Of a DNA stretch of 59,026 nucleotides, positions 28,639 through 54,030 are shown in pieces. Origin of the DNA: Egibacteraceae bacterium (lineage in GTDB: Bacteria; Actinomycetota; Nitriliruptoria; Euzebyales; Egibacteraceae). The stretch is from positions 1 to 59,026 of the forward strand of contig DATLGH010000092.1 in the NCBI GenBank assembly GCA_035540635.1, given 5' to 3'. The notes below the pieces were generated by a model. The model did not search any database. It was given only the letters and a program-made list of their open reading frames with translations, and was not told where the DNA came from. The position numbers and the translations under genes were made by a program. Position 1 is the first letter of the stretch. Every line of letters starts with the position of its first letter.

Positions 28639-28712
28639 CGCGAGGTGGAGCAGTTCGGTAGCTCGCCGGGCTCATAACCCGGAGGTCGCGGGTTCAAATC
28701 CCGCCCTCGCAA
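28639..28712 (+). tRNA. Initiator tRNA-Met (anticodon CAT)
   Basis: The cloverleaf is 74 nt. The acceptor strand CGCGAGG pairs with CCTCGC plus an unpaired 1-72 C-A position, the bacterial initiator hallmark. The anticodon stem CCGGG/CCCGG carries the three consecutive G-C pairs required of initiators, with anticodon CAT at 28673-28675. The T-arm is GCGGGTTCAAATCCCGC. The 3' CCA is not encoded (the next bases are CTACTA). Its 3' end borders the island integrase, so it is the probable attachment site. Confidence 0.97.
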
Positions 28713-28772
28713 CTACTAAACGGCCAGGTCAGCGGGCATTCGCTCGAAGCTCGTCCGGCCACCACATCACCC

Positions 28773-28979: not shown

Positions 28980-30299
28980 GTGGGTGAGACACAGCGCATC
29001 ACGTCGCACTCGATCTACAAGCGGGGCGGGGAGCGCAAGTGGACGCTCGAGGTGCGGCGCAAGGGCTTCGGCACGTCGAAGACCCGCTGGCCGACGGAGA
29101 AGGCCGCCCGGCAGGAGCTGGCCCGGCTGAAGAAGCTGGACGAGGCCGGCGTGCGTCCGACTGGGCCGAGGACGCCTTTCGTCGAGATCGCCGAGGCGTG
29201 GCAGGACTGGTACTTCTCCATCGCCGACATCGCCAGCGCGACCATCGTCGGACACAAGGGCGCGCTCAACGCCTGGATCGTCCCGGCACACGGTGAGTGG
29301 GGGTTCGTCAACCACCGCGTCGAGAGCGTGACCCGCGAGGAGATCACCCGGCTGATGGTCACCATGCGCGAGCAGGGACGAGCCGAGTCGACCATCGCCA
29401 ACACCTACACCACCCTCCGGCTGGTGATGGCCTATGCCGTGGACATGCGGTACATCGAGCGCAGCCCCTTTGACGCGATGACGGCAGCCAACAAGCCACG
29501 CATCCGACGTCGCCGGACCCCCGAGATCTACGAGGTGGCCGACATCTGGAACGTCTTCGACGCGATCCGCCGCCGCCGCGGGACCGCCTTCCCGGACTTC
29601 GCGCTGGCATGGCTGACGGCCTACTACCAGGGCATGCGCATCAGCGAGGTCCTCCAGGTTCGAGCCGCCGACTTGAACTGGACCCGCGGCACTCTGATGC
29701 GCCGCTCGATCAAGACCGACGGTGTCCCCGGGCCCAGGTACCTGCTCGGTCCGCTGGGACCGTTGCTGCGGGAGTACGTGGACTCCCACGGCATCACCGG
29801 CTACCTGTGGCCGCGACTCGGAAGGCGGCAGCTGGACCCGGCGAAGGTCGAGAAGGCGGCTCTGATGCGCGCGGAGGGTTGGACCTGGGTTGCCATCGGA
29901 CAGGAGTTGGGGGTATCCAACGTCTGGGCCAAGCGGCTCTGGGAGGCCTCGCAGGGACCATTGTCCTTCCCTGACGAGCCCGCGACGAAGGACTACTTCC
30001 GCCAGCAGGTGTGGGTGCCCGCGCTCGAGGACGCCGGACTGACCGGGTTCCTCGCCAAGGATCTGAGGAACACCTGCATCGTCCACCTCATCGACGGCGA
30101 CATGACGGGTGAGCCGTGGGACCAGCCCGCGGTGGCGCATCACGTTGACCACGACCTGCGGATGACCCAGCAGATCTACTACCGCTTCCGCCCCGAGCGC
30201 CTGACGGGCATGAAGGCCAACTCCCACTCCCTGGAGGAGATGAGCGTGGACGAGGCGATCCGCCGCTACCGGCCCGACTCCTCCCCGCGGGCCAGGTAG
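28980..30299 (+). CDS. int: Tyrosine-type site-specific integrase
   Basis: The 439-residue protein has an N-terminal arm-binding region (SIYKRGGERKWTLEVRRKGF), a core-binding SAM-like domain (about 66-160) and a catalytic domain. Catalytic Arg220 is in YYQGMRISEVLQ. The second box reads AKDLRNTCIVHL (Arg363), with Lys and Asn where His and His are usual. The third box is VAHHVDHDLRMTQQIYYRF, giving candidate His387/388 and nucleophile Tyr400/401. Residues about 289-322 (AEGWTWVAIGQELGVSNVW) look like an inserted helix-turn-helix. The GTG start at 28980 has a weak purine stretch upstream. It should integrate the island at the initiator tRNA gene. Confidence 0.88.
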   Translation: MGETQRITSHSIYKRGGERKWTLEVRRKGFGTSKTRWPTEKAARQELARLKKLDEAGVRPTGPRTPFVEIAEAWQDWYFSIADIASATIVGHKGALNAWIVPAHGEWGFVNHRVESVTREEITRLMVTMREQGRAESTIANTYTTLRLVMAYAVDMRYIERSPFDAMTAANKPRIRRRRTPEIYEVADIWNVFDAIRRRRGTAFPDFALAWLTAYYQGMRISEVLQVRAADLNWTRGTLMRRSIKTDGVPGPRYLLGPLGPLLREYVDSHGITGYLWPRLGRRQLDPAKVEKAALMRAEGWTWVAIGQELGVSNVWAKRLWEASQGPLSFPDEPATKDYFRQQVWVPALEDAGLTGFLAKDLRNTCIVHLIDGDMTGEPWDQPAVAHHVDHDLRMTQQIYYRFRPERLTGMKANSHSLEEMSVDEAIRRYRPDSSPRAR

Positions 30300-30393: not shown

Positions 30394-30603
30394 TCATCGG
30401 AGAGGCTTCACCGTGGCGGCGTCCATGTAAGACACCAGCGCTTCCTGCGGGATCCTGATAATGTTGGAGATCCTCAGGTACTCGATCTCACGGTTGTCAA
30501 GGAGCCGCCTGGCGGTCATCTGGCTGACGCCCAACAGCTCCGAGGCTTCCGCGACGGACAGCAGGGTTTCGTTCACAGGTCCTCCCGTTTTGCCGGGGCT
30601 CAT
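30394..30603 (-). CDS. Excisionase-like MerR/HTH_17 DNA-binding protein
   Basis: The 69-residue protein consists almost entirely of an HTH_17 domain: LLSVAEASELLGVSQMTARR (helix-turn-helix), then LRISNIIRIPQEALVSYM (the wing-like strand and last helix). Such proteins act as recombination directionality factors or small regulators next to tyrosine integrases. It converges with the integrase gene 94 bp away. Its start overlaps the stop of the preceding frame (ATGA at 30600-30603), so the two were once one operon. Confidence 0.75.
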   Translation of the reverse strand: MSPGKTGGPVNETLLSVAEASELLGVSQMTARRLLDNREIEYLRISNIIRIPQEALVSYMDAATVKPLR

Positions 30604-30809
30604 GCGGCAGCAGGGCTCTTGATCCCATCGAGCTGCGCGAGGGCTTCACGGGTCCCATCGTCGGTAGCAGACCTGCTCACCACGCGCCTCGCGGCCTGGC
30701 GTTCTCGGCTCGCCAGCGATACACCGTCGCTAGCGGGACGGCCAGGTGGATCGGCGAGGTGCTCTGGCGACAGGAGGGCGTCGCCCAGGGCTACTGCAGT
30801 GTCTGCCAT
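30600..30809 (-). pseudogene. Frameshifted second excisionase-like HTH gene
   Basis: The open frame begins MADTAVALGDALLSPEHLAD with a Shine-Dalgarno GAGGTG upstream, then becomes unrecognisable. Shifting one base near 30750 and reading 30751 down to 30680 gives HLAVPLATVYRWRAENARPR, a textbook HTH_17 excisionase recognition segment that runs to a stop. The two halves together make one normal excisionase N-terminal domain. The gene is therefore most likely inactivated by a single-base frameshift. Confidence 0.6.
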
Positions 30810-30989
30810 CGGTTCACCTCGCAGGCTGACCGGTTGCCGTGAGAAGGCCGTGTTCCTCCGCCACGGTTGTCACCTCTTCCATCACTCTTGCGACGCGCCC
30901 ACGTCTGGCCGCGATGTCCGAAGGGAGTTGCCATCGGCACGGCGGCGATGTGACGTCGATCAAGGTCGCCGGTCAGGCGGCGCCTACCC

Positions 30990-31141
30990 TACCCAGCACC
31001 CGCTCGATCACCGTGCGTGAGGCGGCGACGATTCAGGGCTTCCCCGACACCTACTTCTTCTGCGGGCCTCGGGCGAACCAGCCGCTACAGGTCGCCAATG
31101 CCGTGCCCCCTGCTCTCGCCCGCGCGGTCGCGACAAGGTAA
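30990..31141 (+). pseudogene. C-terminal fragment of a C5-cytosine DNA methyltransferase
   Basis: In one frame this stretch encodes TRSITVREAATIQGFPDTYF and then QPLQVANAVPPALARAVA. These correspond to the conserved (S/T)VRExxRxQGFPD and motif X (Q-x-GNAVPP) at the end of C5-cytosine methyltransferases. Upstream sequence (30810-30990) has no methyltransferase motifs in any frame, including no Pro-Cys catalytic motif, so only the tail remains. It marks a former modification gene replaced or deleted at this site. Confidence 0.7.
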
Positions 31142-31348: not shown

Positions 31349-32173
31349 GTGACAGCACCACGACAGGCGCCCGCGAGCAGCCCTGAACGCGGCCCGCTCG
31401 CGACAGCGTTGCGCGCCGCCCGCGGTGACCGCAGCATGCGGTCGGTCGCGCGGGAGGCGGGCGTCTCGCAGGCGCACCTCTCGCGCATTGAGGCCGGCGA
31501 GCGTGGCGCACCACCAGACCTGATCGAGCGCATCGCGGGCGCGCTCCAGGTTGATGCCGGTCCCCTGCTCGAGCTGACCGACGCCCTCCCCGGTAGCGTG
31601 ATCGCGGCGCTCGCAGATCGCGACATCCGGCTCGCGCTCGGCCCTGGCGAGCTGCCATCCGACACCCGTCACCTGCTCAGGCGGCTCCACATCGCCCACA
31701 TCGCCGAGCGCGTCCGCGCGCGGCTGGCGGGGCCGCCACGCGGGCCGGTCGACCCACGCCGCGTGCTCGCAGCGCTGGGCTGGCGGATGGAGCCCGGCAT
31801 GTCGGCTGCGGTGGAGTTCCTGGCCGGTCACCGGGTCTCCGTCCCTCATGCCGCCGACGCCATTCGCCACCGCTTCTTGCTAGCGCACGCGGTGGGCCAC
31901 CTCGCCCTGAGCGACGCGCCGGCGTGTGACCTCCAGAGCGCTTCCGACGCCGAGCTCGACGCCACCGCCCTCGCCGGCTTCCTGCTGGTGCCGCGGGCCG
32001 AGCTGCGGAACTTCGCCCGCGAGGAGGGCCGGCGGCACGACCTTTGGGATCCCGACGGTTCGGAGTTCCTCGCCGCTGCCGCGGTCCGATTCGCCGTTCC
32101 GCTGTGGATGATCGCGCGCCGCCTCGGAGAGGATGGGCGGCTCGCGGAGATCGCGGAGGTCGACGAGCGATGA
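31349..32173 (+). CDS. XRE helix-turn-helix protein fused to a degenerate ImmA/IrrE-like domain
   Basis: The 274-residue protein has an N-terminal XRE DNA-binding domain (about 18-65, SMRSVAREAGVSQAHLSRIE) and a C-terminal ImmA/IrrE (DUF955)-like domain (about 135-265). The usual zinc-peptidase motif HExxH appears as RFLLAHAVGHLALS, with His180 and His184 kept but Ala181 replacing the catalytic Glu. It may therefore bind metal without cleaving. GTG 31349 is set by GGGAGG at 31336-31341. Its stop overlaps the DptF-like start (ATGA), so it is the likely regulator of that operon. Confidence 0.8.
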   Translation: MTAPRQAPASSPERGPLATALRAARGDRSMRSVAREAGVSQAHLSRIEAGERGAPPDLIERIAGALQVDAGPLLELTDALPGSVIAALADRDIRLALGPGELPSDTRHLLRRLHIAHIAERVRARLAGPPRGPVDPRRVLAALGWRMEPGMSAAVEFLAGHRVSVPHAADAIRHRFLLAHAVGHLALSDAPACDLQSASDAELDATALAGFLLVPRAELRNFAREEGRRHDLWDPDGSEFLAAAAVRFAVPLWMIARRLGEDGRLAEIAEVDER

Positions 32174-33999
32174 CTCAACCCTTTGACCGGTCGCTGCCTT
32201 CCCCGATCGGGGCGGTCCTCGCCGTGCGGTCATCGGCCGCGGACTCCGTCGTGATCGCGGGGCAGCTCAGCGACCGCCAGCAGCGAGTCGCGGTGCCCAC
32301 CGGCGTCGAGGACGCCATCCTGTCCGAGATGGAGGGTGGCGCCCTCCGCCTGGTGCTCATCTCCGGATCGGCCGGCGATGGCAAGTCCTTCACGATCGGC
32401 AACCTCCTCGCGAGGCCAGGCAACCCCTGGGAGGGGCGGCCGGAACGGGTCATCGAGGACGCCACCCATAGCGAGCGGCCCGACCAGCAGCAGGTCACCC
32501 GCCTCCGCGAGTTCTTCGCGCCACTGGAGCGAGGCGCCGCGCCGGCTGGCGGGCCGCCCCTGCTCATCGCCATGAACACCGGCATGGTGATCCGCTTCGT
32601 CGCGGACCTGCGCGAGACCGACCCGGGCGCGTACACCAGGCTCGCGGACCTCGCAGAGGTGCTCCTGGGCGCGCTCGGTGTCCCGCACCGTTCAGTGAGA
32701 ACCCCGGACCCGGCCTATGCGGCGTCGATCCTCGTGGCAAACCTCGACGAGCGGCCCACGACCGGCGCGTCCGCGACCCTGTTCCGCGGGATCCTCCGCT
32801 CCTTTGACCCGGGTGATCCCGCGGGCCTCCTCGAGGGTGCGCCCCGCTGCGATACGTGCCGCGTCCGGCCGTGGTGCTGGGTCCGCACCAATGCCGAGAT
32901 CCTCAGCGCCGAACAGCCTTCGGCCGCGCTCGACACGATGGTTGACCGGCTCGCTCTCGAGCGCGGCCGCCCACTGGCGCCAAGGGCCCTGTGGGACGCC
33001 GCCGCCGCGATCACCCTCGGCGGGGCCGAGTTCTCCGAGCCGGACCCCTGCGACCGCATCGCCAAGGTGGCGATGCTCCCCGGGCCCGAAGCGCTCAGCG
33101 AGGTCTGGCTGCGCGTGCTCCCGAACTCCGTGTTCGAGGCACCCGTCGACCACGGGCTCGCGAGCCTCCTGCGAGACCGCGACACGACGTTCGCGGCTGA
33201 CGGCGCCACGCACGACGTGGTCGCCGAGGCCGGTATCGATGCCGGCGCCGATGCTGCAGCGCTCGAGCGCCACCTTGGTGGCCCCTCGCGAGACGCGATC
33301 GCGCTCATCGCGGCGGCAGTGCGCTCGGGAGAGCTCGCCGCGGCGCTCCGTTCGGGCTGGCGACGATCTATCTGCCGCGCCCTCGCGCGCGCGGCGGTCC
33401 TGGCAGGCGACCTCGCCCCGGCGGACCCAGAGCTTGCAGGGTTCGCTGAGCTGCTCGAGGAGTACGCGTCAGGCGACTTCGGTGAGCGCGTGGCGGCGCT
33501 CGAGGAACTCGCGGGAGAGGCGCTCGCGCGGAGCTTCGGCGAGGAGGTCCGCTCCGAAACCTACTTCCGGACAGGGAACGAGGCCGACCGGGACGTCGCG
33601 GTCCACGTCCGAGTCGATATGCGGGCGGGCGAAACCCACGAAGTGCTCGACGACCCGGTCGTCCAGCGGAACCCGCGTGGCGCGCGCGTTGTCGGCTACC
33701 GCCCACTCGCCATCGAACTCGGAATCGCCGCGGACACCGAGCGCAAGGACATCTCGCTCACGGTCAATTACTCGCTCTACCGCGTACTGAGGGACGCCAC
33801 GAGAGGGGTACTGCCGTCGGCTGCCGCGCTCGAGCGCTTCTACAGCTTGCGCCGCGCCGCGGCCGCCCTTGGCGCACACGCCGCGCGCGACCACTCGCAG
33901 CCTCTCCTGCTCGCAGACCGGCGCACGGGCCGGCGGGTGCGCCTCGAACTCCACGAGCGTCGCGGCAACCGGCGCTACCGCGACCAGGAGGTGCTGTGA
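32170..33999 (+). CDS. DptF-like P-loop ATPase of a phosphorothioate-type restriction trio
   Basis: The 609-residue protein has Walker A GSAGDGKS (66-73), an unusual SAGDGKS-type P-loop, with LLIAMNTGMVIRF as the likely following strand. A Cys cluster (C227DTC230, C236) lies in CDTCRVRPWCW. The C-terminal half is helical with a conserved-looking GYRPLAIELG segment. Size, position and motifs match DptF, which with DptG and DptH forms the restriction complex of Dnd phosphorothioation systems. Assignment is by pattern and gene order, not by alignment. ATG 32170 overlaps the upstream stop. The earlier part of the same open frame is not coding. Confidence 0.65.
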   Translation: MTQPFDRSLPSPIGAVLAVRSSAADSVVIAGQLSDRQQRVAVPTGVEDAILSEMEGGALRLVLISGSAGDGKSFTIGNLLARPGNPWEGRPERVIEDATHSERPDQQQVTRLREFFAPLERGAAPAGGPPLLIAMNTGMVIRFVADLRETDPGAYTRLADLAEVLLGALGVPHRSVRTPDPAYAASILVANLDERPTTGASATLFRGILRSFDPGDPAGLLEGAPRCDTCRVRPWCWVRTNAEILSAEQPSAALDTMVDRLALERGRPLAPRALWDAAAAITLGGAEFSEPDPCDRIAKVAMLPGPEALSEVWLRVLPNSVFEAPVDHGLASLLRDRDTTFAADGATHDVVAEAGIDAGADAAALERHLGGPSRDAIALIAAAVRSGELAAALRSGWRRSICRALARAAVLAGDLAPADPELAGFAELLEEYASGDFGERVAALEELAGEALARSFGEEVRSETYFRTGNEADRDVAVHVRVDMRAGETHEVLDDPVVQRNPRGARVVGYRPLAIELGIAADTERKDISLTVNYSLYRVLRDATRGVLPSAAALERFYSLRRAAAALGAHAARDHSQPLLLADRRTGRRVRLELHERRGNRRYRDQEVL

Positions 34000-35651
34000 C
34001 CCGCCCCGCTGTCTCTACCGCTCTCACCCGTATCACGCAGCGCACTGGCGTCGCGCTCGAGATCGACGGCGCGACGCTCGACGTCGGCGGGCACCGCGTG
34101 CCTCTCCCCGCGCGCAGTGCCTGGGACAACCTCCGCATGCGGCATGCCTTCCCCTACGCCGCCCGCGGTGACCAGCGCGAGAAGCTTCTTTTCACGGCGA
34201 TCCAGGACGCGGGTCCCGAGCGCACGACGCCACACCGGCTCGACGAGGAGCTTCGGTCGGACCTCGAGGACTACATCAGCCTCCCCGGGGCGCGGACCGT
34301 CGGCACGGTGGCTGACGCGATGCGCGGCGAGTACTGGACCGAGCCATCCAAGCGCCCGTTCCTCCTGCCGTACCACGCCGACCTTCCCCTGGCGTACACC
34401 CACTCGGTGCTTGTGAAGACCCCCCGCGGGAACGAGCGCCTCGCTCGGGACGGCAAGACGTTCAACGCCGCCCAGTACCGCATGTTCGCCGGCTACATCC
34501 TCCCGTTCCTTTGCTGGGACGGCACCGCTGTCAACACACCGCTCATCGACGAGCTGCTCCAGGTCGTGGCAAGCCAGGATGGGCTCACGCTCCTCGACAC
34601 GCTCTTCCTGGAGGCCGCCCGCGCGCTCGCCGGGGACACCGGCGAACTCTCAAGTGAAAGGCTCATCGACCGCGCCGGGAGCATGCTGGGCCCGCTCGAA
34701 AACAGCAGCGGGGGGCCGTTCTGCCAGCACTCGCTCGCCCTCTTCCAGCGCGACCTCGCCACCGTCATCCGGATGGCCCTGCCACGCGCCGACCGGATCG
34801 CCGCGATCACGCAGGTGATCAGCCTCCACCTCGCCACCTACTACTACCGCGTCGCGCTCGTGCTCGGCATCGAGCTCGAAACACTCGCCGCCGCCACAAC
34901 GGGGGAGGCAGCGACCCCGGCATGCCCCTGCACTGGTCTCGCCGCGTGCCCCCTCGCCGGAGCCATCAAGATGCGGGCGCCCACACGCGGCTTCCGCGCG
35001 ATCTCGCTGTCGTCACCGAGCCGCGAGTCCTACCTGGCACTCGACCGCGACCGCCTCCTGGCAATGCCAGCGAACATCATCGCCGCCAACCTCCTCGAGC
35101 GCGCGTGGGCCGCGGTCGGCGGCACCGCCAGCCGCGAGGGCACCCCCCGCCCCGCTGCGATCACCGCCGAGCTCGGCCTCCGGCAGGAACTCCTCCGGGA
35201 GTTCGACGCCGCTGCGGCCGCGCTCAGCGTCCTCTACGCCGGCGACGCAGACGCTGCAGATAGCACCATCGCTCACATCGCGGCGCGCGAGCCCGGTCCG
35301 TTCGCGCTGCAATCCGCGGTCATCCAGATCCGCCGCTCGCGGCTAAAGCACACGTCGCGCGACGTCGTACACCAGCTCGCGCACCGGCCCGGAGAAGGCG
35401 CGATCCTCCGCAAGAACGGGAGCCTCTACTACTTCGAGCTCGACGAGGACATGCTCTTCCTTCTTGTCAAGCTCATCTGCCAGGACGAGACGATCGCGCT
35501 CGACACATTCCTGACGCGGCTGGCCGAGTACGGCCTCGCACCGCAAGACCGCGCCGAGACGGACCTCCTCGCATCGCGTCTCGAGGAACTCGGGATGCTC
35601 ACCCGCTACTCCGACGCCGGGGAATCAAACTATGTCCGCCACATCTTCTGA
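33996..35651 (+). CDS. DptG-like protein
   Basis: The 551-residue soluble protein lies between the ATPase and the FtsK-like gene. The GTG start overlaps the DptF-like stop (GTGA) and has AGGAGG at 33986-33991. A Cys motif (CPCTGLAACP) sits mid-protein. The C-terminus, SLYYFELDEDMLFLLVKLIC then LEELGMLTRYSDAGESNYVR, resembles the end of DptG proteins. I see no nuclease or ATPase motif, so it is probably a structural or DNA-binding partner. It overlaps the DptH-like gene by 20 bp. Confidence 0.6.
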   Translation: MTRPAVSTALTRITQRTGVALEIDGATLDVGGHRVPLPARSAWDNLRMRHAFPYAARGDQREKLLFTAIQDAGPERTTPHRLDEELRSDLEDYISLPGARTVGTVADAMRGEYWTEPSKRPFLLPYHADLPLAYTHSVLVKTPRGNERLARDGKTFNAAQYRMFAGYILPFLCWDGTAVNTPLIDELLQVVASQDGLTLLDTLFLEAARALAGDTGELSSERLIDRAGSMLGPLENSSGGPFCQHSLALFQRDLATVIRMALPRADRIAAITQVISLHLATYYYRVALVLGIELETLAAATTGEAATPACPCTGLAACPLAGAIKMRAPTRGFRAISLSSPSRESYLALDRDRLLAMPANIIAANLLERAWAAVGGTASREGTPRPAAITAELGLRQELLREFDAAAAALSVLYAGDADAADSTIAHIAAREPGPFALQSAVIQIRRSRLKHTSRDVVHQLAHRPGEGAILRKNGSLYYFELDEDMLFLLVKLICQDETIALDTFLTRLAEYGLAPQDRAETDLLASRLEELGMLTRYSDAGESNYVRHIF

Positions 35652-38600
35652 CCTCGCCGCGGAGGCGCTCCTAGACGCCGCAGCCGCCAGCAGCGTGGAT
35701 CGCAGGATCGTCCTGAGCAGCCACCTCGGCCTCGACCTCGACTCTATCCACGGCGCCCTCCTCGCTCGGTCCGACCGCGACGTCGATCTCGTGCCCGGCT
35801 TCTCGGTCGTGCTCGGCAAGCCCGAGCATGAGCTCCAACCACGAGCCGGGTACACGCTCCGCGCCATCACGGCCGGCGCGGCGACCGTCGTCCCGTACCT
35901 GGTCAGTCCGCTCGCCGTCAGCGCCAACCGGGGGTCGCAGGGCTTCGCGGCGGCACTGCGCTCCGCCTTCCAGGCCGGGCCGCGGCAGCCCGCGGACACC
36001 CGCGTGCTCATCACGCTCGACCCGGCGCCTGTGGAGACGGTGCTCACCGCTTCCGAGGGCGCGGACTCACTTCCCGAGCTCACCTGGACCGAGCTCGCCA
36101 ACCGTGCCAGGGTCTCGATCCGACCCGGTCCCGCAAGCGGGCTGCTCGACGCTGTCGTCTCCGACATCGCGCAGCGGCGCGGTAGCGCGACCCTGCTGGA
36201 CCAGCTGCTCGCCTTCGTCTCGGACGACTGGGCCTCCGAGGAGGCCGCCGGTAGAGCGCTGCACCGGCTAGGCGCCCACCTGTCCGACCCTCACGTGGCT
36301 GGCGACTGGGCCGCAAGGCTTTCCCGCGGCGCGCGATGGCGCGAGCGCATCACCGCCTGGGCCGCCCCGGGCAGCGACCTAGATCACGCCCTCGCAACGC
36401 AGCCGACGATCAGCGAGGCCGTCGCAGCGAAGATCTCCTCCTCCCTCGGACCCCACGGCCCGGACTTCGCCAGCTTCACGCTGTCGGAAGTCGAGGGCAC
36501 CGCGCCCGCCCCCGGGCTGGAGATCGCGTCGCCGCTCCACATCACGATCGCACCAGCGGTCTCCACGGTCGTCGCCGGCGAACCGGTAGCTGCGATCTGG
36601 CTGCCGGGAGGGTCGGGGACCTTCCGTGTGCGGCTCGCCGGCACCGCCGACGGCACCGAGACGGCGGCCGTGAGCTGGCAAGCCGGCGCGGCGCGCGCCG
36701 AGATCACCGGCCGCGAGCTGGCGATCACCATCGCCGGGTCTGGCTGGGCGGCCGGCTCGGCGGAGCTGCATTCCGCGGCAGGGCGGTCCCGCCTGAGTTT
36801 CCTCGCGTACTTCGGAAGCGGGAGCTGGTTCCCCGTCGAGCGCCGCCTGGACATCGACACCGCGGCCGCCGCGTTCGTCGTCGCTGGCGGCGAACCCGAA
36901 ATCCTCGCCGTCGGCGCGGCCGGCCAGTTCCTGGGCCCCGCAACCGTCACCCTCCCCGGACAGGCCACCGGCATGATCACCGCCACCGCAACGTCCTTCG
37001 GTGAGGACGCAACCGTCCCACTGCTGCTCGCGGGCGAGCCCGGTGATGGCGACGACGGCGACGACGGCGGCGGCACCGGCGATGACGGCGACGATGACGG
37101 CGACGACATCGATGACGGCGGTGACGGCGGCGGGGCCAAGACGCGCCCGGCGCAGCCGTCCCCAGTCCACGCACGCATCGACGCGGCGCGCGAATCAGAA
37201 TCCCCGGACGTCGGAGCGGTCACCTTCACCGCGGCTACCCCGATTCTCGTCGGCGGCTGGGCGTACGAGCTCGCGGGGCAGCTGGTCCGCAGTCACGACG
37301 GGCTCGATCTCGAGCGGCAGGTCCTCGCGTCTCCCGCTGCCACGGCGTTCGCCCTCAGCACCACCGGCGTGATCGAGCAGCTCGACGACCTCACGCTGCG
37401 CGACGCGGGCCCCCTCGCCCCGCAGGCTAGGGCGTTCCTTGACGCGCGCGCGTCGTTCTTCGCCGTCGCGGCGACGCGCGGCACCGTTCTCGCCCTGGGC
37501 GCTGACCTGCCACGGACGGAGGCGCTCGCGTACTGCGAAACCTACGGCGACCTCCTGGCGGCTGTACCCCGCGGCGAGCGCTACCGGCCGGAGTACGACT
37601 CGATCCTGCTGGCGGACACCATCACGTACACGCCAACAGGCGAGATCTTCATCGCGCCGACCCACCCGCAGACGGTCGCCTTCTACCTCGCGTTCGCCGA
37701 GGCGGCCGAAGGGTGGGTCACCAGCCAGCAGCTCCCATCCCGCGGCGACAGCGCGGCGATCACACCTCGCCACCTCCTGCCGATGTTCAACCTCGACGGG
37801 CGGTGGTTCGACAGCGCCCCCTCACCGGCGTTCCTCTGGCGCGCATACCGGCCGATGTACCAGCCGGGATCCCTGTCCGAGCACGACCCGCGGCTCATCT
37901 CGAACCGGCTCCGCTTCTTCCTCGACGTGTACCCGGCGTACAACGACCCGCGCCAGCGCATCGCGGTCGCGTTCCACGACCCCGGCGATGGGACCACGGT
38001 CCTCCAAGCCCTGCGCGCCTTCTACCGCCCCGACATCACCCACGCCCGCACGATGCGCGGCGGGCCCGCGCTGACCAGGCCTGTCCTCGACGTCAGCATC
38101 GTCGGGGACGGCGAGATCCCACGCGCCATCCGCACACTCCTGGACGGCATCAGCGACGACCTCGCTGACCGCGTGCTCCGCGAGCGCGTACGGTTCCGGG
38201 TTACCGAGGCAGGGTCACCGGACGCTGGCGGATTCCACCACGTCACGTTCCTCTTCCGCTCCCGCGGCGAGCGGACGCCCTGGCCGGTGGATATGGGAGA
38301 GCGCGCGCCGACGTCCTACGTCGGCGGGCTCGCGACCGCGCCCGGGCGGGCCATGCTCTCCGGGGGGGGCGAGTCCGCGTTCGCATGGGGCGCCTTCGCC
38401 CCAGCCGCGTGTGGCGACTCCGGCGCCGGCCGGCCCGGTTCGGTTCTCGCGTCAGTCACGCGCGGGCTCCTCGAGCTCGTCGGCGGCCAACCGCGCGAAC
38501 TCGTACAGGACGGCCTCACCCGGATGCCCACGACCGTCGTGCACTCCGGAGATGGTGCCGCCATCTACGACTCCTCGGTCTGGATCGTCCACCTCGACCG

Positions 38601-40821
38601 CCTCCTGGGCCTCGAAGCGTTCACACCGGCGGCCGCGCACCCGCTCTACATCGTTGACTACAGCGAGAGCGATGACCCGGGCGATCCCGGCCTCGACGCC
38701 ATCACCGTGACCGGCAAGGTCACCCCATATCACCACGCGCTATCCGTCGCGCTCGCTGACTTCGGGACCCTCACGCCAGCCGGCCGCGATGGCATCCTCC
38801 AGGTTCTCAACGGGGTATCGGGCCGGTGGGCACTCCAGCTGTTGCGGCAGGCGCCGCACCAGGTGCGTGAACGCGTCGGGACGGTTACCGCGATCGCCGT
38901 GCTGCGCGACCTGGAGCGCTGCTTCGAGATCTGCCCCGGCGCCGGAGTCATCGTGCCGCTCGAGGAAGTGTGGGACGCCGTCGAGCGCCGCGCCGCCGCT
39001 GCCGGTCAGCACCCGTCGTGCGATGACCTCGTCTACCTCCATCTCGCCAGGGACGACCTCGCGAGCGTCACCGTGACGGCCCGGCTCGTCGAGGTGAAGT
39101 TCCGCAGCGCCGGGCAGCCCAGCGCTGCCGAAGCACGCGCGGAGCTCGAGACCGGAACCTCCCGCCTCCGAGCTCTGTTCGACACCTCAGGCCCAGCGCG
39201 ACTCTTCCGCGGCCGGGATCTTGCCGAGGTGATCCGGGCGGGGTGGACTCGCGGCCGCGCCTTCGGTCTCCATACCGGCGGCGACGCAGCCTGGTTCGAG
39301 TCCGCGCTCGCAGACATCGCCGCGGGCCGATTCCGCCTCGAGCTCCAGTACACAGTCGGGTCCGAGCCGGTCTGCGGTGACGTCATCTCGGTCGAGGCAC
39401 AGAGCACCGCCGAGCCCGCGCGCGTGATGCTTCCGGGAGTTGGATCGGCGTTCGGAATGATCCGTGTCGGCCGCACCGCGCTGGACAGCATCGCTGCGGG
39501 CCGGTCAATCGCCCGGCCACGCGGCTGGGAACCAGCGACGTTTGGTGGCGGGGGTACCGGTGGCTCTACGGGTGGACCGCCGGCTGCTGGTGGTCCCGCG
39601 CCAGGCGCGGCGCCCGCGGGGGCGGCGGGCCACGCGGACCCGGCCGGCGATGCAACCGCCGGCGGCGGGCGCGACGCGGGGAGCGCTGCGGCTGGCGTGC
39701 CAGAGCCGCCCCCTCGCCGCACCGGTCATGGCGACGAGGAGGCCGAGCGGCTCGCCGGCGAGCTCACGCGCGCGGCTGCCAAGTACGGGCTCGACCTCGA
39801 GCCGTTCCAGCCCCACCTCGCGCAGGTCGGCCCCTCAGTGATTCGCTTCCGCACCCGACCGCTCGGCCGGCAGGCGCTCGCTGGTGTCCAGCGCCTCGCG
39901 CTTGATCTCGGTCGCGAGATTGGGGCCGGCGGGGGCGTCCTCGTCGATCAGGAGGCGTACTTCATCACCGTCGATGTGCCCAGGGCGCAGCGTGAGACCG
40001 TTCCCTACGCGGACTACGAGCACCTCCTCGATCGAGCGACCGCGCCAGGGTCTCTCGACTTCCTCGTCGGTATGGCCCCCTCCGGGGACGTGCGCATCGC
40101 GGATCTCGCGCGGCTTCCACACCTCCTCGTCGCGGGCGCGACAGGCAGCGGCAAGAGTGTCTTCCTCCGCGCCCTGCTCGCGAGCCTGGTACGGACCCGC
40201 ACGCCCGAGCAGCTCCGTCTCATGGTGGTCGACCCCAAGCAGGTGGACTTCCTGCAGTTCGAGGACCTCCCACACCTCATGCTCGGCGGCGTGCTGACGG
40301 ATCCCGCGGAAGCTCTCATCGCCCTCGTCGACACCATCGACCACGAGCGCCAGCACCGCCTCCCCATCCTCCGCGGCGCCGGCGTCACGAACGTCATCGA
40401 GTACTACGAAGCCGGGCACGCGCCGGAAGAACTCCCTCAGATTGTCGTCGTGGTCGACGAGTTCGCCGACCTCGCGACCTCACTCGACCGCGAGAACAGG
40501 GCCCGCTTCATGGGGCTCATCCAGCGCTACGGCCAGATCACCCGCGCGTTCGGGATCTACCTTGTGCTCGCCACGCAGCGACCGAGCGTCAATGTGATCA
40601 CGGGTGACATCAAGGCGAACCTGACGGCCCGCGTCGCGCTGAAGGTCCAGGCGCCGCAGGACTCCGTCACGATCCTGGGCCGCGGCGGCGCGGAGCGCCT
40701 GCGAGACCGTGGCGACCTGATCTTCGATCATGGCGGCAACGCAGAGCGACTGCAGGGGTTCCTTGCCACGGCCGAGGACGCCCGCCGCGCGATCGGGAGG
40801 TGGCTCAACCCGGGACGATGA
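35632..40821 (+). CDS. DptH-like giant FtsK/HerA-type ATPase with a PD-(D/E)XK-like motif
   Basis: This 1,729-residue protein has an N-terminal helical region, a beta-rich region (about 290-450) and a low-complexity Asp/Gly linker (about 470-505). A large middle domain carries a nuclease-like motif DDLVYLHLARDD followed by RLVEVKFR (Glu1154, Lys1156). A Gly/Ala/Pro linker follows at about 1305-1360, then an FtsK-type motor: Walker A GATGSGKS (1502-1509), VVDPKQVDF, Walker B IVVVVDEFADL (Asp1609), and VLATQRPSVNVITGDIKANL. The FtsK alpha/beta entry segment precedes it. Size and C-terminal motor match DptH. The protein probably translocates on and cuts DNA that lacks the self mark. Confidence 0.7.
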   Translation: MSATSSDLAAEALLDAAAASSVDRRIVLSSHLGLDLDSIHGALLARSDRDVDLVPGFSVVLGKPEHELQPRAGYTLRAITAGAATVVPYLVSPLAVSANRGSQGFAAALRSAFQAGPRQPADTRVLITLDPAPVETVLTASEGADSLPELTWTELANRARVSIRPGPASGLLDAVVSDIAQRRGSATLLDQLLAFVSDDWASEEAAGRALHRLGAHLSDPHVAGDWAARLSRGARWRERITAWAAPGSDLDHALATQPTISEAVAAKISSSLGPHGPDFASFTLSEVEGTAPAPGLEIASPLHITIAPAVSTVVAGEPVAAIWLPGGSGTFRVRLAGTADGTETAAVSWQAGAARAEITGRELAITIAGSGWAAGSAELHSAAGRSRLSFLAYFGSGSWFPVERRLDIDTAAAAFVVAGGEPEILAVGAAGQFLGPATVTLPGQATGMITATATSFGEDATVPLLLAGEPGDGDDGDDGGGTGDDGDDDGDDIDDGGDGGGAKTRPAQPSPVHARIDAARESESPDVGAVTFTAATPILVGGWAYELAGQLVRSHDGLDLERQVLASPAATAFALSTTGVIEQLDDLTLRDAGPLAPQARAFLDARASFFAVAATRGTVLALGADLPRTEALAYCETYGDLLAAVPRGERYRPEYDSILLADTITYTPTGEIFIAPTHPQTVAFYLAFAEAAEGWVTSQQLPSRGDSAAITPRHLLPMFNLDGRWFDSAPSPAFLWRAYRPMYQPGSLSEHDPRLISNRLRFFLDVYPAYNDPRQRIAVAFHDPGDGTTVLQALRAFYRPDITHARTMRGGPALTRPVLDVSIVGDGEIPRAIRTLLDGISDDLADRVLRERVRFRVTEAGSPDAGGFHHVTFLFRSRGERTPWPVDMGERAPTSYVGGLATAPGRAMLSGGGESAFAWGAFAPAACGDSGAGRPGSVLASVTRGLLELVGGQPRELVQDGLTRMPTTVVHSGDGAAIYDSSVWIVHLDRLLGLEAFTPAAAHPLYIVDYSESDDPGDPGLDAITVTGKVTPYHHALSVALADFGTLTPAGRDGILQVLNGVSGRWALQLLRQAPHQVRERVGTVTAIAVLRDLERCFEICPGAGVIVPLEEVWDAVERRAAAAGQHPSCDDLVYLHLARDDLASVTVTARLVEVKFRSAGQPSAAEARAELETGTSRLRALFDTSGPARLFRGRDLAEVIRAGWTRGRAFGLHTGGDAAWFESALADIAAGRFRLELQYTVGSEPVCGDVISVEAQSTAEPARVMLPGVGSAFGMIRVGRTALDSIAAGRSIARPRGWEPATFGGGGTGGSTGGPPAAGGPAPGAAPAGAAGHADPAGDATAGGGRDAGSAAAGVPEPPPRRTGHGDEEAERLAGELTRAAAKYGLDLEPFQPHLAQVGPSVIRFRTRPLGRQALAGVQRLALDLGREIGAGGGVLVDQEAYFITVDVPRAQRETVPYADYEHLLDRATAPGSLDFLVGMAPSGDVRIADLARLPHLLVAGATGSGKSVFLRALLASLVRTRTPEQLRLMVVDPKQVDFLQFEDLPHLMLGGVLTDPAEALIALVDTIDHERQHRLPILRGAGVTNVIEYYEAGHAPEELPQIVVVVDEFADLATSLDRENRARFMGLIQRYGQITRAFGIYLVLATQRPSVNVITGDIKANLTARVALKVQAPQDSVTILGRGGAERLRDRGDLIFDHGGNAERLQGFLATAEDARRAIGRWLNPGR

Positions 40822-40905: not shown

Positions 40906-42855
40906 TCACCCGCCAGCTTCACCGATCATCGGCATCGGTGACGGCATCGCGAACGCATCCAAGTAAGTCCTGATCGAACCCTCCGCAACGTCGAGTCCGG
41001 CGGTACTCCGCGATGCGATCGCCAGCGCAGCGTTGGAGACCAGGCGCGCAGCGTGTGACAACGGCGCAGCAGCGTCGGCGGGCAGGACTGCTCGTGCGCC
41101 ATCGATCGCGTCCGCGACGAGTTCGAGGCGAGCGGCTAGCCGAGCGGCCCGGCGCTCGCTTCCCCAGCCGTCGTATGCCTCGTTGAAGGCGTGCGCTGCA
41201 TCGTTTAGGGCGAGCCAGGCGACCGCCGCCGCAGCGGATGCCGGGGTCTCGACTGCGAGGCGATTCGCTGCGTTAGCGGGCAGAAACGTGCAGAGAGGGA
41301 GCGGACGGAACGAGTTCACGGCTTTGCGCCAGACCTTGTCGGCGATCTCGATCGCTGCGCGCGACAGGTCAATCACCGGCTCAGGCGCTTTTTGGGTCAT
41401 CACGACGACGCGGTCGGGGCTGATGCGGCCTGACGCCTCGAGAACGGCTTGGAAGCAAGGTTCGATCGCGCTGAACGGGACATCATCGACCGTCACAGTT
41501 AGGACGCCGTTGTCGAATTCCCAATCGTGAACGTGCAGTCCGTTCGTCCCGAAGCGCGCCAAAGCGCCATGAAGATCGATGACCTTTCCGGTGTTGGGCG
41601 GTCGATGGATGTCGAGCAATCGGCCGAGAAGGTCGGATTCGGAACGAGCACATGTCCAACCGCATTCGGCGCCCGACATGAGGGCGTACGCGCGCTCGGT
41701 TGCCTCGACTAGCTCGTCGACGGCCACCTCGGCCTCCCCCACCAATAGCACCCCGCGTCTGCCGTCCCATTCGAAGTCCTCGTGGGCGGACGCGTTCCGC
41801 GCTGACGTGAGGATCACGCCTGCCGCCTCACGGCTCAGTGGGTGGCCGTCCGCCAAAAGTTGATCGCGCAGGGATGCGAGCTCGGGCATCCTGTCGAGGT
41901 CACGCCCGCGAAGCCGGAGGATCGTCCATGCCCATGGCCGAAGCTGACCTTCGACCATCCTGCGATACAGGTCGAGGCGCAACGGCGCCTGCTCGGCAAG
42001 GGTCCGAGCCTCCTCCAGCTGCGCTGTGACCCTCAGCATCGCGGCGTGGTTGGCCGCGCTGCGATCTACGCGATACTTCAGATCGCGCAGTGGCGTCGCG
42101 GCCACCTCAGGATCGGTGAGAAGTAGATCTGCGATAAGTGACCTCACCTGGACCGCCGCACGCAAAGAGAGGAGTGGCCGCGGTCCCAAGAACAGCGCGC
42201 CGGCGGCGCGGAGCCCGTCAATCGGGTTCGGTGGGCTCGAAGTGATGAGCGCCAGCACGCCATCAACGATGCGCGTCAGGTCCGCCTCGCGGCCGTGGAA
42301 GTAGGCGACGACCCGAGCCGGCGAGAACACCCCGCGGGCGTCACACACTGCGGCGCGTGAGACGCCGAAGAGAGCCTCAACTGGATTAACCACGGTGGGC
42401 GGATTGCACCCGAGCAGGCTGTCGAATGCGGCTCGCATCCTTTCGTCCCAGCTCCGGATGTCGATGCTGGCTGGTTGAGTGACTCCTTGAAGGGCTGCCA
42501 TCCCGATCTCGAAAGCAGCGTCACGGATCGGAACGGCGGTGTTCCCGGGACCGAGCGCTGAAAGGCACCAGAGATCGAGCGTGAAACCTGTCACTTGCTC
42601 GGCGAGCGCTGAAGCGGCGGTGCTCAATCCGGCAGCATCGTCCGCCAGCGCAGCGCCGATTACCGCACGCGCGGGTGCGAGAACAGTCGACTCGGCTCGC
42701 TCAGCTATTCTCACTAGTCCGGCGTCCCGAAGCGCTTGATCCCACTGCACCCGAGTCACGGGAACGACCGGTGCGGGCGGGGTCGGCACGGCACGCAACG
42801 CGTTCAGAGCCGAAGACACCAGCCGTTTGCGCGCGGTGGCGGGCAGTGCGCTCAT
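40906..42855 (-). CDS. Large helical protein of unknown function with a HEPN-type RNASAH motif
   Basis: I do not recognise the 649-residue protein as a whole. It is mostly helical and has no membrane segment. At residues 353-358 it has RNASAH within AAGVILTSARNASAHEDFEW, which fits the R-polar-x3-H catalytic motif of HEPN ribonucleases, set in a helix as expected. The flanking segment (ELASLRDQLLADGHPLSREA) could be the rest of a small HEPN domain. A Cys pair occurs in SGAECGWTC. Its ATG overlaps the HNH gene stop (ATGA), so it is the last gene of the defence operon and a candidate abortive-infection effector. Confidence 0.5.
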   Translation of the reverse strand: MSALPATARKRLVSSALNALRAVPTPPAPVVPVTRVQWDQALRDAGLVRIAERAESTVLAPARAVIGAALADDAAGLSTAASALAEQVTGFTLDLWCLSALGPGNTAVPIRDAAFEIGMAALQGVTQPASIDIRSWDERMRAAFDSLLGCNPPTVVNPVEALFGVSRAAVCDARGVFSPARVVAYFHGREADLTRIVDGVLALITSSPPNPIDGLRAAGALFLGPRPLLSLRAAVQVRSLIADLLLTDPEVAATPLRDLKYRVDRSAANHAAMLRVTAQLEEARTLAEQAPLRLDLYRRMVEGQLRPWAWTILRLRGRDLDRMPELASLRDQLLADGHPLSREAAGVILTSARNASAHEDFEWDGRRGVLLVGEAEVAVDELVEATERAYALMSGAECGWTCARSESDLLGRLLDIHRPPNTGKVIDLHGALARFGTNGLHVHDWEFDNGVLTVTVDDVPFSAIEPCFQAVLEASGRISPDRVVVMTQKAPEPVIDLSRAAIEIADKVWRKAVNSFRPLPLCTFLPANAANRLAVETPASAAAAVAWLALNDAAHAFNEAYDGWGSERRAARLAARLELVADAIDGARAVLPADAAAPLSHAARLVSNAALAIASRSTAGLDVAEGSIRTYLDAFAMPSPMPMIGEAGG

Positions 42856-43550
42856 CGCTCAGTGAACCGGACTTCGACGGCAAGGTACTCACGCAGCACA
42901 AGTTTGACGATGCTCCTCTCGTCGAATTCGACCGCGTACCGAAACCGGTTTGGCTGGACAAGCAGCCAGCCGAGAGCTGCCCCGACGTTCCCTTCGCAAA
43001 GGCCGAGAGCCTGTCGTGTGATCATGCGGCTCCCTACCTCGGCGAAGACCGCTGGTGGCGGGGAGTGTTCGAACGCATTGCGCGTGCTGCCATCCATGGT
43101 GTGCAGCGGCCGGAAGCCGACGCGCGCCGACATCCCAAGCGCAGGCTCAGCGAGTTCGTAGGCCCACAACCCGCGCGCCATCTTCTCGACCACCCGGCGG
43201 ACGCGACCGGCCTCAGCCTCAACGGTGACGGCTTCCGGGTCTAGGGCCGCTCGGAACCTGGCGGCGAGCGCGGCGCTCCGTCCGAGCGCGCGGCGCACGC
43301 GTGGCCGCTCGAGGTCCTCCGGTACGGCACTTCCGCATGCGGCCACCTCAATCAAGCAGGCGACGTACTCCTCATCGACTGACGCGCTTGAGTTGCAGGG
43401 CCCACACGTCCCGACCACCGGTAAGTTGGTGGGGAAGGGTTCGTCAAGGAATGCTTTGGGCGGGACGTGGTCACGCGTCCGCGGCAAGCCGCCGCACTGC
43501 GCACAGAACGCCGCATGGCGCTCGTCGGAGTTCGGTGTGATGGCCCTCAC
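42852..43550 (-). CDS. HNH endonuclease-like protein
   Basis: The 232-residue protein has an N-terminal zinc-ribbon HNH-type centre: FCAQCGG, then RTRDHVPPKAFLD (the DH pair), then VVGTCGPCNSSAS (second CxxC and Asn). This is the layout of HNH nucleases in which two CxxC pairs bind zinc. The remainder, about 150 residues, is of unknown fold. GTG 43550 is chosen because the zinc ribbon normally lies near the N-terminus and TACTCT lies 6 nt upstream; ATG 43688 in the same frame is possible. The upstream gap 43,551-43,822 holds only that promoter and a 12-bp palindrome CCCTGATCAGGG (43817-43828). Confidence 0.65.
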   Translation of the reverse strand: MRAITPNSDERHAAFCAQCGGLPRTRDHVPPKAFLDEPFPTNLPVVGTCGPCNSSASVDEEYVACLIEVAACGSAVPEDLERPRVRRALGRSAALAARFRAALDPEAVTVEAEAGRVRRVVEKMARGLWAYELAEPALGMSARVGFRPLHTMDGSTRNAFEHSPPPAVFAEVGSRMITRQALGLCEGNVGAALGWLLVQPNRFRYAVEFDERSIVKLVLREYLAVEVRFTER

Positions 43551-43556
43551 GCGTCG

Positions 43557-43562
43557 AGAGTA
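43557..43562 (-). promoter_or_regulatory. -10 element (TACTCT) of the HNH/HEPN gene pair
   Basis: TACTCT on the minus strand ends 6 nt before GTG 43550, matching the leaderless pattern seen elsewhere in this window, so this pair may be expressed apart from the helicase operon. Confidence 0.35.
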
Positions 43563-43822
43563 CGCGGCGGGCCGTGACGCCGAGTCGGGATTCCGGGCCC
43601 CCGGGCTCGCCGGCTTGGCAACCGCACGACCGCGTGTCGGCAGATGTTGACAAACACCGACCGCGCCAACGCTGGCGTCGGGCGTCATCGGCCTACTCGG
43701 ACCCTGCCGCCGTCCGCCTGTCGACCCGGCCGGAGTCCATCTACACCTTCCTTTCGCCACGGGCGGTACGGGCTGGTGAGCGGTGAGTACGGACTGAAAC
43801 GTCAAATGCGCGAACGCCCTGA

Positions 43823-44974
43823 TCAGGGAGCTGTGCTGACGATCTGAGGAAGATCGTCCACCCTGGCAATGACCGTGCGATTGGTGGGCATTAGGGTGCC
43901 GCCCGCCCGTCTGGCGAGGCCTACGACACGGATGCGCGTTCCTTGCTGTACCTGACGAAGCACGGGATAGGTCGCTGGTGAGAGTGGGGAGAGCGCGGCA
44001 ACGTCTCCCGCCTCTTCGGTTCCCTCGTCAACTCGCAACTGAAGCGCGAGAGCTGATCCGCTGTGAATCGGTTCCGGCACCGAGGACGCCAGGCCGCCCA
44101 CTGCCGCTGTCCCGAGGTGCTCACGCCACGAGCTGCCGGCGGCTGCCCAGAACGCCGGGCAGACCAACTGAAATGGACACCACCGGCACGTTTCGGGCGA
44201 CGGGCTCGCAAGGTCAAGAACGCCCGCACCACCCGAGACTGCGTCGTTGTACTTGTCGAGCAACTCAAGGGTCTCCGCCGCCACTCGCTCGCAGTCCCCC
44301 GCGTCGAACTCGATCTCGACAGGAAGGCCCTCCATCGGAAGGAGCACGCCGCGGGCGGGCCAGCGCCCAGTCGAGTCTCTGACCAGGAACGCGTAGAGCT
44401 GAAGCTGCCGGACGTACGTCGCCTTCACGACATGGTCCTCTCGGTGCTCAATCACGTCGCCGGTCTTGTAATCGATGACGGCGTCGCCCCGCAGCAGATC
44501 TGGACGCCCCACAAGTCGGCCGCCAGCGGCTGTGAGCCATCGTTCGTGACGATTCGTAGGGCGGCTGTCGCCAACAACCGGTGGCATACCTGCGTTGGCC
44601 ACCTCAGCACCTCCGTCACCCCCGATCTCATGCGCCCGCATCAGCGCCATGGCCCGGATGAGGTGGTAGCCGGGCCAGCGGTCTGGAACGCCGAACCGGC
44701 GGTTGAGTGGGTGCGCCTCCGCGCGCTCGTGCTGTTCGCGGACCGCTTGCTCCCATACGTCGGCTGCGCTGGCGTCGCTCGCGTGCGCACCCGCGGCCGC
44801 GAGGACCTCGTGATACGCCGTACCGAGCCACGCCTTCGGATTCCCGAGTACCAGTGCAGTGGCGTTCTCCAAGCGGGACAGGCCAGCCCGAAGAGGGCAG
44901 AGCCGAAGCAGCTCTGCAAGGCTGGGGCTTACGGTCCAGATCGTCGTCAGCTCAAGCGGCGGCGGAGCCGGCAT
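43823..44974 (-). CDS. Cas4/RecB-like PD-(D/E)XK nuclease with an iron-sulfur cysteine set
   Basis: The 383-residue protein has the PD-(D/E)XK layout: His55 in GTAYHEVL, Asp159 in VGRPDLL, Asp168-x-Lys170 in AVIDYKTGD, and the QxxxY motif QLQLYAFL. Cys26 (LRLCPLRA) and the C-terminal trio Cys263/Cys266/Cys272 (CRWCPFQLVCP) match the 4Fe-4S ligands of Cas4, AddB and PDDEXK_1 exonucleases. A C-terminal extension of about 110 residues looks like an OB-fold (GTRIRVVGLARR). Its ATG lies 2 bp after the helicase stop, so it is co-translated and probably processes DNA ends made by the helicase. Confidence 0.85.
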   Translation of the reverse strand: MPAPPPLELTTIWTVSPSLAELLRLCPLRAGLSRLENATALVLGNPKAWLGTAYHEVLAAAGAHASDASAADVWEQAVREQHERAEAHPLNRRFGVPDRWPGYHLIRAMALMRAHEIGGDGGAEVANAGMPPVVGDSRPTNRHERWLTAAGGRLVGRPDLLRGDAVIDYKTGDVIEHREDHVVKATYVRQLQLYAFLVRDSTGRWPARGVLLPMEGLPVEIEFDAGDCERVAAETLELLDKYNDAVSGGAGVLDLASPSPETCRWCPFQLVCPAFWAAAGSSWREHLGTAAVGGLASSVPEPIHSGSALALQLRVDEGTEEAGDVAALSPLSPATYPVLRQVQQGTRIRVVGLARRAGGTLMPTNRTVIARVDDLPQIVSTAP

Positions 44975-44976
44975 GA

Positions 44977-50547: not shown

Positions 50548-51479
50548 TGCACCTGCTGCCGGAGTAGTTGGGCGGCGAGACGCGCTACTTCTGAGGGAAC
50601 GCTGCGGTACCCCAGGCGGCCTGACCGTGGATCGAAGTCGGGGAGATAGCCAGAGCAGAGAACCAGTGCCCGCTCGATGAGAAGTGGTGGCCTGCAGATC
50701 GCGGGGACGGACAGCGTCTCGGTGGCCGCATCGTAGGCCAGGAGGCCGCGCCTCTTCCGCATGACCGCGTACTTGCCGACCTGGACTGGGACGCGGTAGG
50801 AGCACCCGTGCCAGCGCAGGTAGTAGAAGCGTTGATGCTTCATGACGAACCGGAAGAGCCCGGTTCGCTCGCGCATCGCGTCAGTGGTCGTGCACTCAAC
50901 CCATCCAAGTCGCGAGGACGAGAAGCGGTGGACCGCCCAACCGGGGGTCTCTGGAATTGCCATCCTGAACCAGGTGGCCGGATCGCGCACGTCGGGTACT
51001 GCGGACAGGATGGCAGTCGCTGCATCTGCCTGGACGAGGATGCCCAGCCACTCCGCGGAGAGCGCCTCGGCGGCCCCGCGAAGCACGATCCGCTGGGGCA
51101 TGCCCGGCACATCCACCGCGACGACGTCGAGATCGGCGCAGCGATCCAGTCTTTGCATGAGCTCCGGGGACCGAGCTCCGCAGAGAAGGCCCCCGTATGG
51201 GTTGCTCGGAAGCATCGCGACCGCAGGCGGGACAACGCGCCAGTCGTGGCCTGCCGTGGTCGAGAAGAACTCGACGTGACTGAGGCGCTGCAGGGCGAAG
51301 CGGGCGCGCTGGTAGACCGGCAAGTCTGAGCTGGCCAGGGCAGGCCCGTCCTGGCCGTCACCTGCATTAGACTGCTCGTAGTCCTGCTCGACGCCCAACT
51401 CCTCAACAGCCCCGCGGAACTGTGACCAGGAGCCTTGTCCCTTCGCTGAGAGCCAGAGCAGAAGGTGTTCAAGGCTCAC
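50544..51479 (-). CDS. Druantia II-associated protein of unknown fold (candidate DruG)
   Basis: The 311-residue protein has no motif I recognise. Its N-terminus (LEHLLLWLSAKGQGSWSQFR) looks like a small winged-helix or helical domain. The middle is alpha/beta. The C-terminus (PPLLIERALVLCSGYLPDFD, then SVPSEVARLAAQLL) looks conserved. GTG 51479 has GGAGG 7 nt upstream and overlaps the preceding gene by 11 nt; the open frame upstream of it is not coding. Position directly before the giant helicase fits DruG of Druantia type II, but that rests on gene order only. Confidence 0.55.
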   Translation of the reverse strand: MSLEHLLLWLSAKGQGSWSQFRGAVEELGVEQDYEQSNAGDGQDGPALASSDLPVYQRARFALQRLSHVEFFSTTAGHDWRVVPPAVAMLPSNPYGGLLCGARSPELMQRLDRCADLDVVAVDVPGMPQRIVLRGAAEALSAEWLGILVQADAATAILSAVPDVRDPATWFRMAIPETPGWAVHRFSSSRLGWVECTTTDAMRERTGLFRFVMKHQRFYYLRWHGCSYRVPVQVGKYAVMRKRRGLLAYDAATETLSVPAICRPPLLIERALVLCSGYLPDFDPRSGRLGYRSVPSEVARLAAQLLRQQVQ

Positions 51480-54024: not shown

Positions 54025-54030
54025 ACGAGA

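Follow-up and report, generated by a model that had tools for sequence, protein, structure and literature searches.

How a bacterium can carry a restriction module of the DptFGH type when no genes for phosphorothioate (PT) modification of DNA are found in its genome is the question raised by a four-gene operon of an Egibacteraceae bacterium. The operon (31349-40821, + strand) lies in a stretch of 59,026 nucleotides, hereafter the window, which is the entire contig C92 (DATLGH010000092.1) of the host assembly GCA_035540635.1 (3.46 Mb, 110 contigs, 96.5% complete). Its genes, referred to here as X, F, G and H in this order, occupy ~9.5 kb in four open frames that overlap by 4 bases at X/F (ATGA), 4 bases at F/G (GTGA) and 20 bases at G/H. 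A preliminary description of this DNA had likened F, G and H to DptF, DptG and DptH, had noted an XRE/ImmA-like gene coupled ahead of them and had put the whole forward as a candidate for an undescribed system. As set out below, the operon probably encodes an FGH restriction complex that belongs to the DptFGH/SspFGH/MAD6-7 superfamily, acts independently of PT and is kept harmless by X and/or by base methylation.

The homology of the three downstream genes is borne out by profiles, PADLOC matches and conserved motifs. F (32170-33999, + strand, 609 residues, ATG start) resembles DptF/DndF, a P-loop kinase-like NTPase; G (33996-35651, + strand, 551 residues, GTG start) is a DptG/DndG/MAD7 homologue and the predicted DNA-binding subunit; and H (35632-40821, + strand, 1729 residues, ATG start) is a DptH/SspH homologue that combines a methyltransferase-like region, a PD-(D/E)XK nuclease and an FtsK translocase. 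The check proposed in the preliminary description gave significant matches for all three proteins, each of them below the curated NCBIfam cut-off: F versus TIGR03238 (DptF), 3.4e-6 and 26.2 bits (cut-off 50); G versus TIGR03236 (DptG), 5e-4 and 19.4 bits (cut-off 20); H versus TIGR03237 (DptH), 8e-9 and 33.8 bits (cut-off 620.65). PADLOC reads F as DndF-like (5e-9), G as DndG-like (1e-4) and H as both SspH-like (4e-56) and DndH-like (1e-12), the SspH score being confined to the C-terminal region, which holds the FtsK domain that these proteins share. Family profiles made without the window sequences, on the basis of FGH operons elsewhere, detect F (2.2e-44), G (9.6e-36) and H (3.7e-98) as their sole matches among 403 open reading frames of the window, and shuffled controls gave no match to them. 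Profiles restricted to canonical Dnd members still detect F, G and H (9e-6, 2e-7 and 2e-11), and Ssp-only profiles recover G and F. On this profile evidence F, G and H correspond by homology to DptF, DptG and DptH in the same order, but at great divergence, with at most 24-26% identity to any relative retrieved.

The residues expected of an active module are retained. F (residues counted from position 32164) has an intact Walker A motif, GSAGDGKS (G68-S75; 32365-32388), conserved across 13 F proteins, an acidic residue after strand 2 (D99) and a Walker B-like IAMN (32566-32577) in which Asn replaces Asp as published for DndF, N138 being invariant in the 13 proteins. DndG is characterised by three winged helix-turn-helix domains; in G, the C-terminal part is the region that matches the DptG and DndG profiles. 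H carries the two activities of DndH, namely PD-(D/E)XK nuclease residues (D1131-D1132 ... E1154-x-K1156; 39022-39099), invariant in 12 FGH operons, and an FtsK/HerA ATPase (40039-40590; PF01580, 1.6e-38) with Walker A GATGSGKS and Walker B DE, of which K1508 and D1609-E1610 are invariant in 12/12 H proteins compared. Residues ~747-1007 of H (37870-38652) were modelled with low confidence as a methyltransferase-like Rossmann fold (second-look search Z up to 8.5); the model covers residues 480-1300 at a predicted local distance difference test (pLDDT) score of 47.7, so that its fold matches are soft support only, and the catalytic [DNS]PP[FYW] motif is absent from H. This layout agrees with that published for DndH (dead adenine-methylase domain, nuclease, FtsK), the model being too weak for proof.

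No Dnd or Ssp modification protein was matched among the island proteins scanned with Pfam, NCBIfam and PADLOC (28.9-58.7 kb), as the preliminary description had stated for the island. The search of the host assembly for dnd and ssp genes, set beforehand as the test against that description, was likewise negative: the only DndD match was a P-loop one of 19.9 bits, and neither SspC nor a PAPS protein of the DndC/SspD type was found. The two PAPS-reductase-family genes of the host were read from their translations as CysH, adjoining sulfite reductase, and CysD, adjoining CysN, and a host DndC was rejected on these grounds. The dndBCDE genes that define a PT-dependent Dnd system were not found in this incomplete assembly, nor were the sspBCD genes of an Ssp system, of which SspC and an SspD-type PAPS protein are both missing. 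Thus, the PT machinery is absent from the sequenced part of the host genome.

FGH modules without PT genes have precedents. Rakesh et al. 2024 (PMC10853773) count DndFGH in 1,798 taxa versus all eight dnd genes in 316 taxa; from comparative genomics they argue that DndFGH, commonly found apart from DndABCDE, counters invaders as a system of its own. Because stand-alone DndFGH has been published there, DptFGH without PT is not new; NCBI moreover annotates dptF/dptG on plasmids without dnd genes nearby, and MADS is a further non-PT relative, so the label of an undescribed system goes too far. The window operon shares with stand-alone DndFGH the lack of PT genes, a kinase-like F, a predicted DNA-binding G and an H composed of a putative pseudo-methylase, nuclease and FtsK; it differs in its coupled XRE/pseudo-M78 gene, which the available part of that paper does not describe. 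Compared with DptFGH/DndFGH proper, it has the F-G-H order with overlaps, the protein sizes, the Walker A and Asn-type Walker B of F, the nuclease residues of H and the FtsK/HerA C-terminus in common, whereas its proteins do not reach the NCBIfam cut-offs, the assembly lacks dnd modification genes and an XRE/M78 gene heads the operon. H matches SspH best, through the FtsK domain, and G and F are found by Ssp-only profiles, yet the host assembly has no sspBCD, and in the F tree the window protein lies closer to another branch than to Ssp.

A link to MADS, for which our statements rest on NCBIfam and PADLOC models, emerges from the same profiles: that for F detects a DptF domain in MAD6 (6e-29), that for G detects MAD7 (2e-9), and the PADLOC mad7 model in turn matches 8/12 G proteins. 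The large MADS protein in the H position was missed by the H profile, yet it aligns the DD...ExK motif. The DptF domain of MAD6 is positioned behind its kinase (L079 9538-15293). MADS thus resembles the window operon in its MAD6 with a DptF domain, its MAD7 with a DptG domain, a helix-turn-helix (HTH) gene heading the operon and a non-PT partner; unlike MADS, the window operon has an F without a kinase, MAD2 and MAD5 were not found in the window, and no relationship of X to the MADS HTH protein could be detected. The combination of MAD2, MAD5 and kinase-bearing MAD6 that identifies MADS is therefore missing from the window operon. With stand-alone members of the family already described, the operon is a distinctive, divergent variant and not a new system.

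At all complete loci that could be read the F-G-H order is constant and the partner genes vary. FGH stands with dndBCDE at three loci (L012-L014) and with sspBCD at two (L007, L008); on a Priestia plasmid its partner is a Dam/AlwI restriction-modification pair, on a Natronorubrum plasmid Dam methylases, and on a Bacteroides plasmid an FGH-type module sits in a MADS operon with MAD2, MAD5, MAD6 and MAD7 above their cut-offs. In an arrangement intermediate between MADS and stand-alone FGH, a Rhizobium anhuiense plasmid (L080 9601-23766) has an F fused to NERD, a G resembling MAD7 and, after H, genes for two DNA methyltransferases and a phospholipase D protein. On a 56-kb plasmid of Levilactobacillus brevis (L081 10038-19092), FGH lies alone between insertion sequences, annotated as dptF/dptG with no modification genes nearby, and in Pyxidicoccus fallax (L006 1928-12194) a kinase-fused F, G and H lie among ordinary genes with no obvious partner; the P. 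fallax genome gave no DndD match at E <= 1e-3, no C5 methylase match and only a 24-bit partial match to SspC. In trees, window F groups with kinase-fused F proteins (92/92) and is not nearest to Dnd or Ssp members, and window H groups with the Pyxidicoccus H (100/99). Searching 396 genomes of the phylum with the single F protein returned no full-length F elsewhere and one other, weak match, and a search of phylum genomes with the F alignment found only distant large F-like fusions; a genome-contig search with a 3-sequence F alignment gave 7 relatives, and none were found in viral contigs.

The protein at the operon head, X (31349-32173, + strand, 274 residues, GTG start), combines an XRE HTH (HTH_3, 5e-9) with an M78 (ImmA/IrrE-like) domain (Peptidase_M78, 3.5e-7). 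The description of a coupled XRE/ImmA-like gene stands as far as these domains and the ATGA overlap with F are concerned, but X is no ordinary ImmA: on motif inspection its HEXXH is degenerate, HAVGH (residues 180-184; 31886-31900), so that, though PF06114 matches, the catalytic Glu of an ImmA/IrrE M78 peptidase is replaced by Ala. Since the third zinc-ligand region (ELDATALAGFLLVP) is retained, the zinc site may persist despite this loss; ImmA-type proteolysis is unlikely because of it, which leaves repression or direct inhibition as possible roles. Structure prediction for X alone gave no reliable model (pLDDT 43.6). The best PADLOC match of X is to RmrA profiles (3e-10); its neighbour is F, and RmrT profiles matched none of F, G and H. 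In RosmerTA, proteins with an ImmA domain serve as promiscuous antitoxins (PMC10440598). CBASS is released when CapH is cleaved by CapP, a protease that aligns structurally with PprI, a protease of the IrrE type. X shares the XRE and M78 domains with RmrA and CapH/CapP; it differs in lacking the catalytic Glu and in heading a restriction operon rather than accompanying a toxin or CBASS. No relatives of X were found in plasmids, and those in 246 genomes of the phylum were HTH-level matches only, except for one weak match that extends into the M78 region.

In the mechanism that we favour, the DNA would be read by G together with the putative pseudo-methyltransferase region of H, the FtsK domain of H would translocate along it, the PD-(D/E)XK domain would nick or cut it, and F would sense or use nucleotides and so license the reaction. 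Less certainly, X may act as an XRE repressor whose M78 domain is catalytically dead and hold the operon down until the cell is infected or its DNA damaged; such a regulatory role is supported by the precedent of M78/XRE pairs that regulate defence operons (CapP/CapH). Base methylation may add to or replace control by X, a C5 methyltransferase having been lost upstream and DruM now being the intact C5 methylase. Several points weigh against this reading. As the preliminary description had assumed, SspFGH and DndFGH have been found experimentally to damage cells lacking PT (PMC8092258); because they are toxic without the mark, an FGH in an unmarked host needs another safeguard, which here is only inferred. 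Parts of the genome are missing from the assembly, and the window stops at the contig end. A constant XRE/ImmA-F-G-H order found no support, an X homologue being present at none of 15 other FGH loci, and X is consequently tied to F-G-H in function by coupling alone. Finally, the F and H trees are long-branched, and the program warns on the H join.

An alternative that we hold to be unlikely is that the operon is a variant restriction-modification system in which FGH spares DNA carrying a C5 or other methyl mark, its own methylase having been truncated to a scar and the mark being supplied by DruM or another enzyme. Such a scar, the C-terminal ~57 residues of a cytosine-C5 DNA methyltransferase (30968-31141, + strand; PF00145 positions 263-320, 3.6e-10; 1.7e-9 in the whole-genome search), indeed lies directly 5' of X, and with the intact DruM of the window it makes up the C5 methylases of the host; it may, however, stem from an unrelated lost restriction-modification system, lying as it does between integrase and operon, and DruM is part of a Druantia operon. 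The company kept by FGH elsewhere cuts both ways: MADS joins an FGH-type module to the methyltransferase MAD2 and the specificity subunit MAD5, two methyltransferases follow the Rhizobium FGH, and Dam-family methylases flank those of Natronorubrum and Priestia, whereas no methylase adjoins FGH in Pyxidicoccus and L. brevis. An origin of the scar by duplication from DruM was rejected, the two being 37% identical over 48 aligned residues and without a match at the DNA level. The host assembly gave no match to a Dam-type or an N6/N4 methylase, and the sole N6_Mtase gene of the genome, on contig C76, reaches 37 bits against MAD2 (cut-off 720). It encodes a lone, weakly MAD2-like N6-adenine methyltransferase of 626 residues (L077 5807-7687); the two large genes ahead of it gave no NCBIfam match.

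Somewhat less likely again is that FGH is an ordinary PT-dependent Dpt/Ssp restriction module whose modification genes were missed through the incomplete assembly or lie beyond the contig end. Fragmented assemblies often lose mobile clusters, the window is a whole contig among 110 at 96.5% completeness, and H scores best against SspH; yet that score comes from the shared FtsK part, 3.46 Mb contain no DndD, SspC or DndC/SspD-type gene, and the nearest relatives of F are not Dnd or Ssp members. In addition, the G+C content moves back toward host values at 56-58 kb of the window, so that the island probably ends inside it.

We consider it doubtful that X is instead a direct, antitoxin-like inhibitor of FGH, as RmrA is for RosmerTA toxins, replacing modification altogether. 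The match to RmrA profiles, the ImmA-domain antitoxins of RosmerTA and the ATGA overlap with F speak for it, as does the lost catalytic Glu, which suits binding over proteolysis; set against this, X accompanies no other FGH, and HTH proteins encoded first in an operon are more often simple repressors. X-F-G-H might also be a restriction-antitoxin unit in which a dead ImmA-type X restrains the FGH nuclease-translocase directly and frees it on infection, so that telling self from non-self would need no DNA mark, an idea that we regard as equally doubtful. That the operon is what remains of a restriction cluster, inert or in decay, as the adjoining methylase scar and partial integrase could suggest, is very improbable given four intact coupled frames over 9.5 kb, catalytic residues kept at ~20-25% identity to relatives and a third-position G+C of 84-88% in the X-F-G-H frames.

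The X-F-G-H operon sits on a mobile island. A tRNA-Met (28639-28713, + strand, ARAGORN) is its probable insertion site and is followed by a tyrosine-recombinase-like integrase (28980-30299, + strand) with a partial match (XerD model, 9e-11 over residues 112-239; PF00589 weak) and by an open frame for an excisionase-like small HTH protein (30397-30645, - strand; HTH_17, 2.7e-10), the C5 scar being located between the latter and the operon. Neither duplicated attachment sites nor a second copy of the tRNA end were found inside the window; no sigma-70-like promoter was found 5' of X, and terminator-like matches are at chance level. Convergent to the operon lies a Druantia cluster (40906-56132, - strand) with DruM, an HhH-GPD glycosylase-like protein, a DruF-like protein, DruL, DruE (1942 residues) and DruK, continued by two genes (649 and 317 residues) with no Pfam, NCBIfam or PADLOC match above noise. 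It combines features of type II (DruM, DruF) and type IV (DruE4, DruL, DruK) Druantia, and the HhH-GPD base-excision protein between DruM and DruF (54031-55203, - strand; PADLOC nicking endonuclease-like, 1e-5) is an unusual Druantia partner.

Given the homology of MAD6 and MAD7 to DptF and DptG, FGH may be a restriction module of general use that has been joined to different marks. FGH modules occur in genomes without PT genes, although DndFGH and SspFGH damage cells that are without their mark, and how the host survives is a question for the whole family. X-F-G-H makes this question testable, because a candidate control protein shares the transcriptional unit of FGH in a genome in which no PT genes were found.

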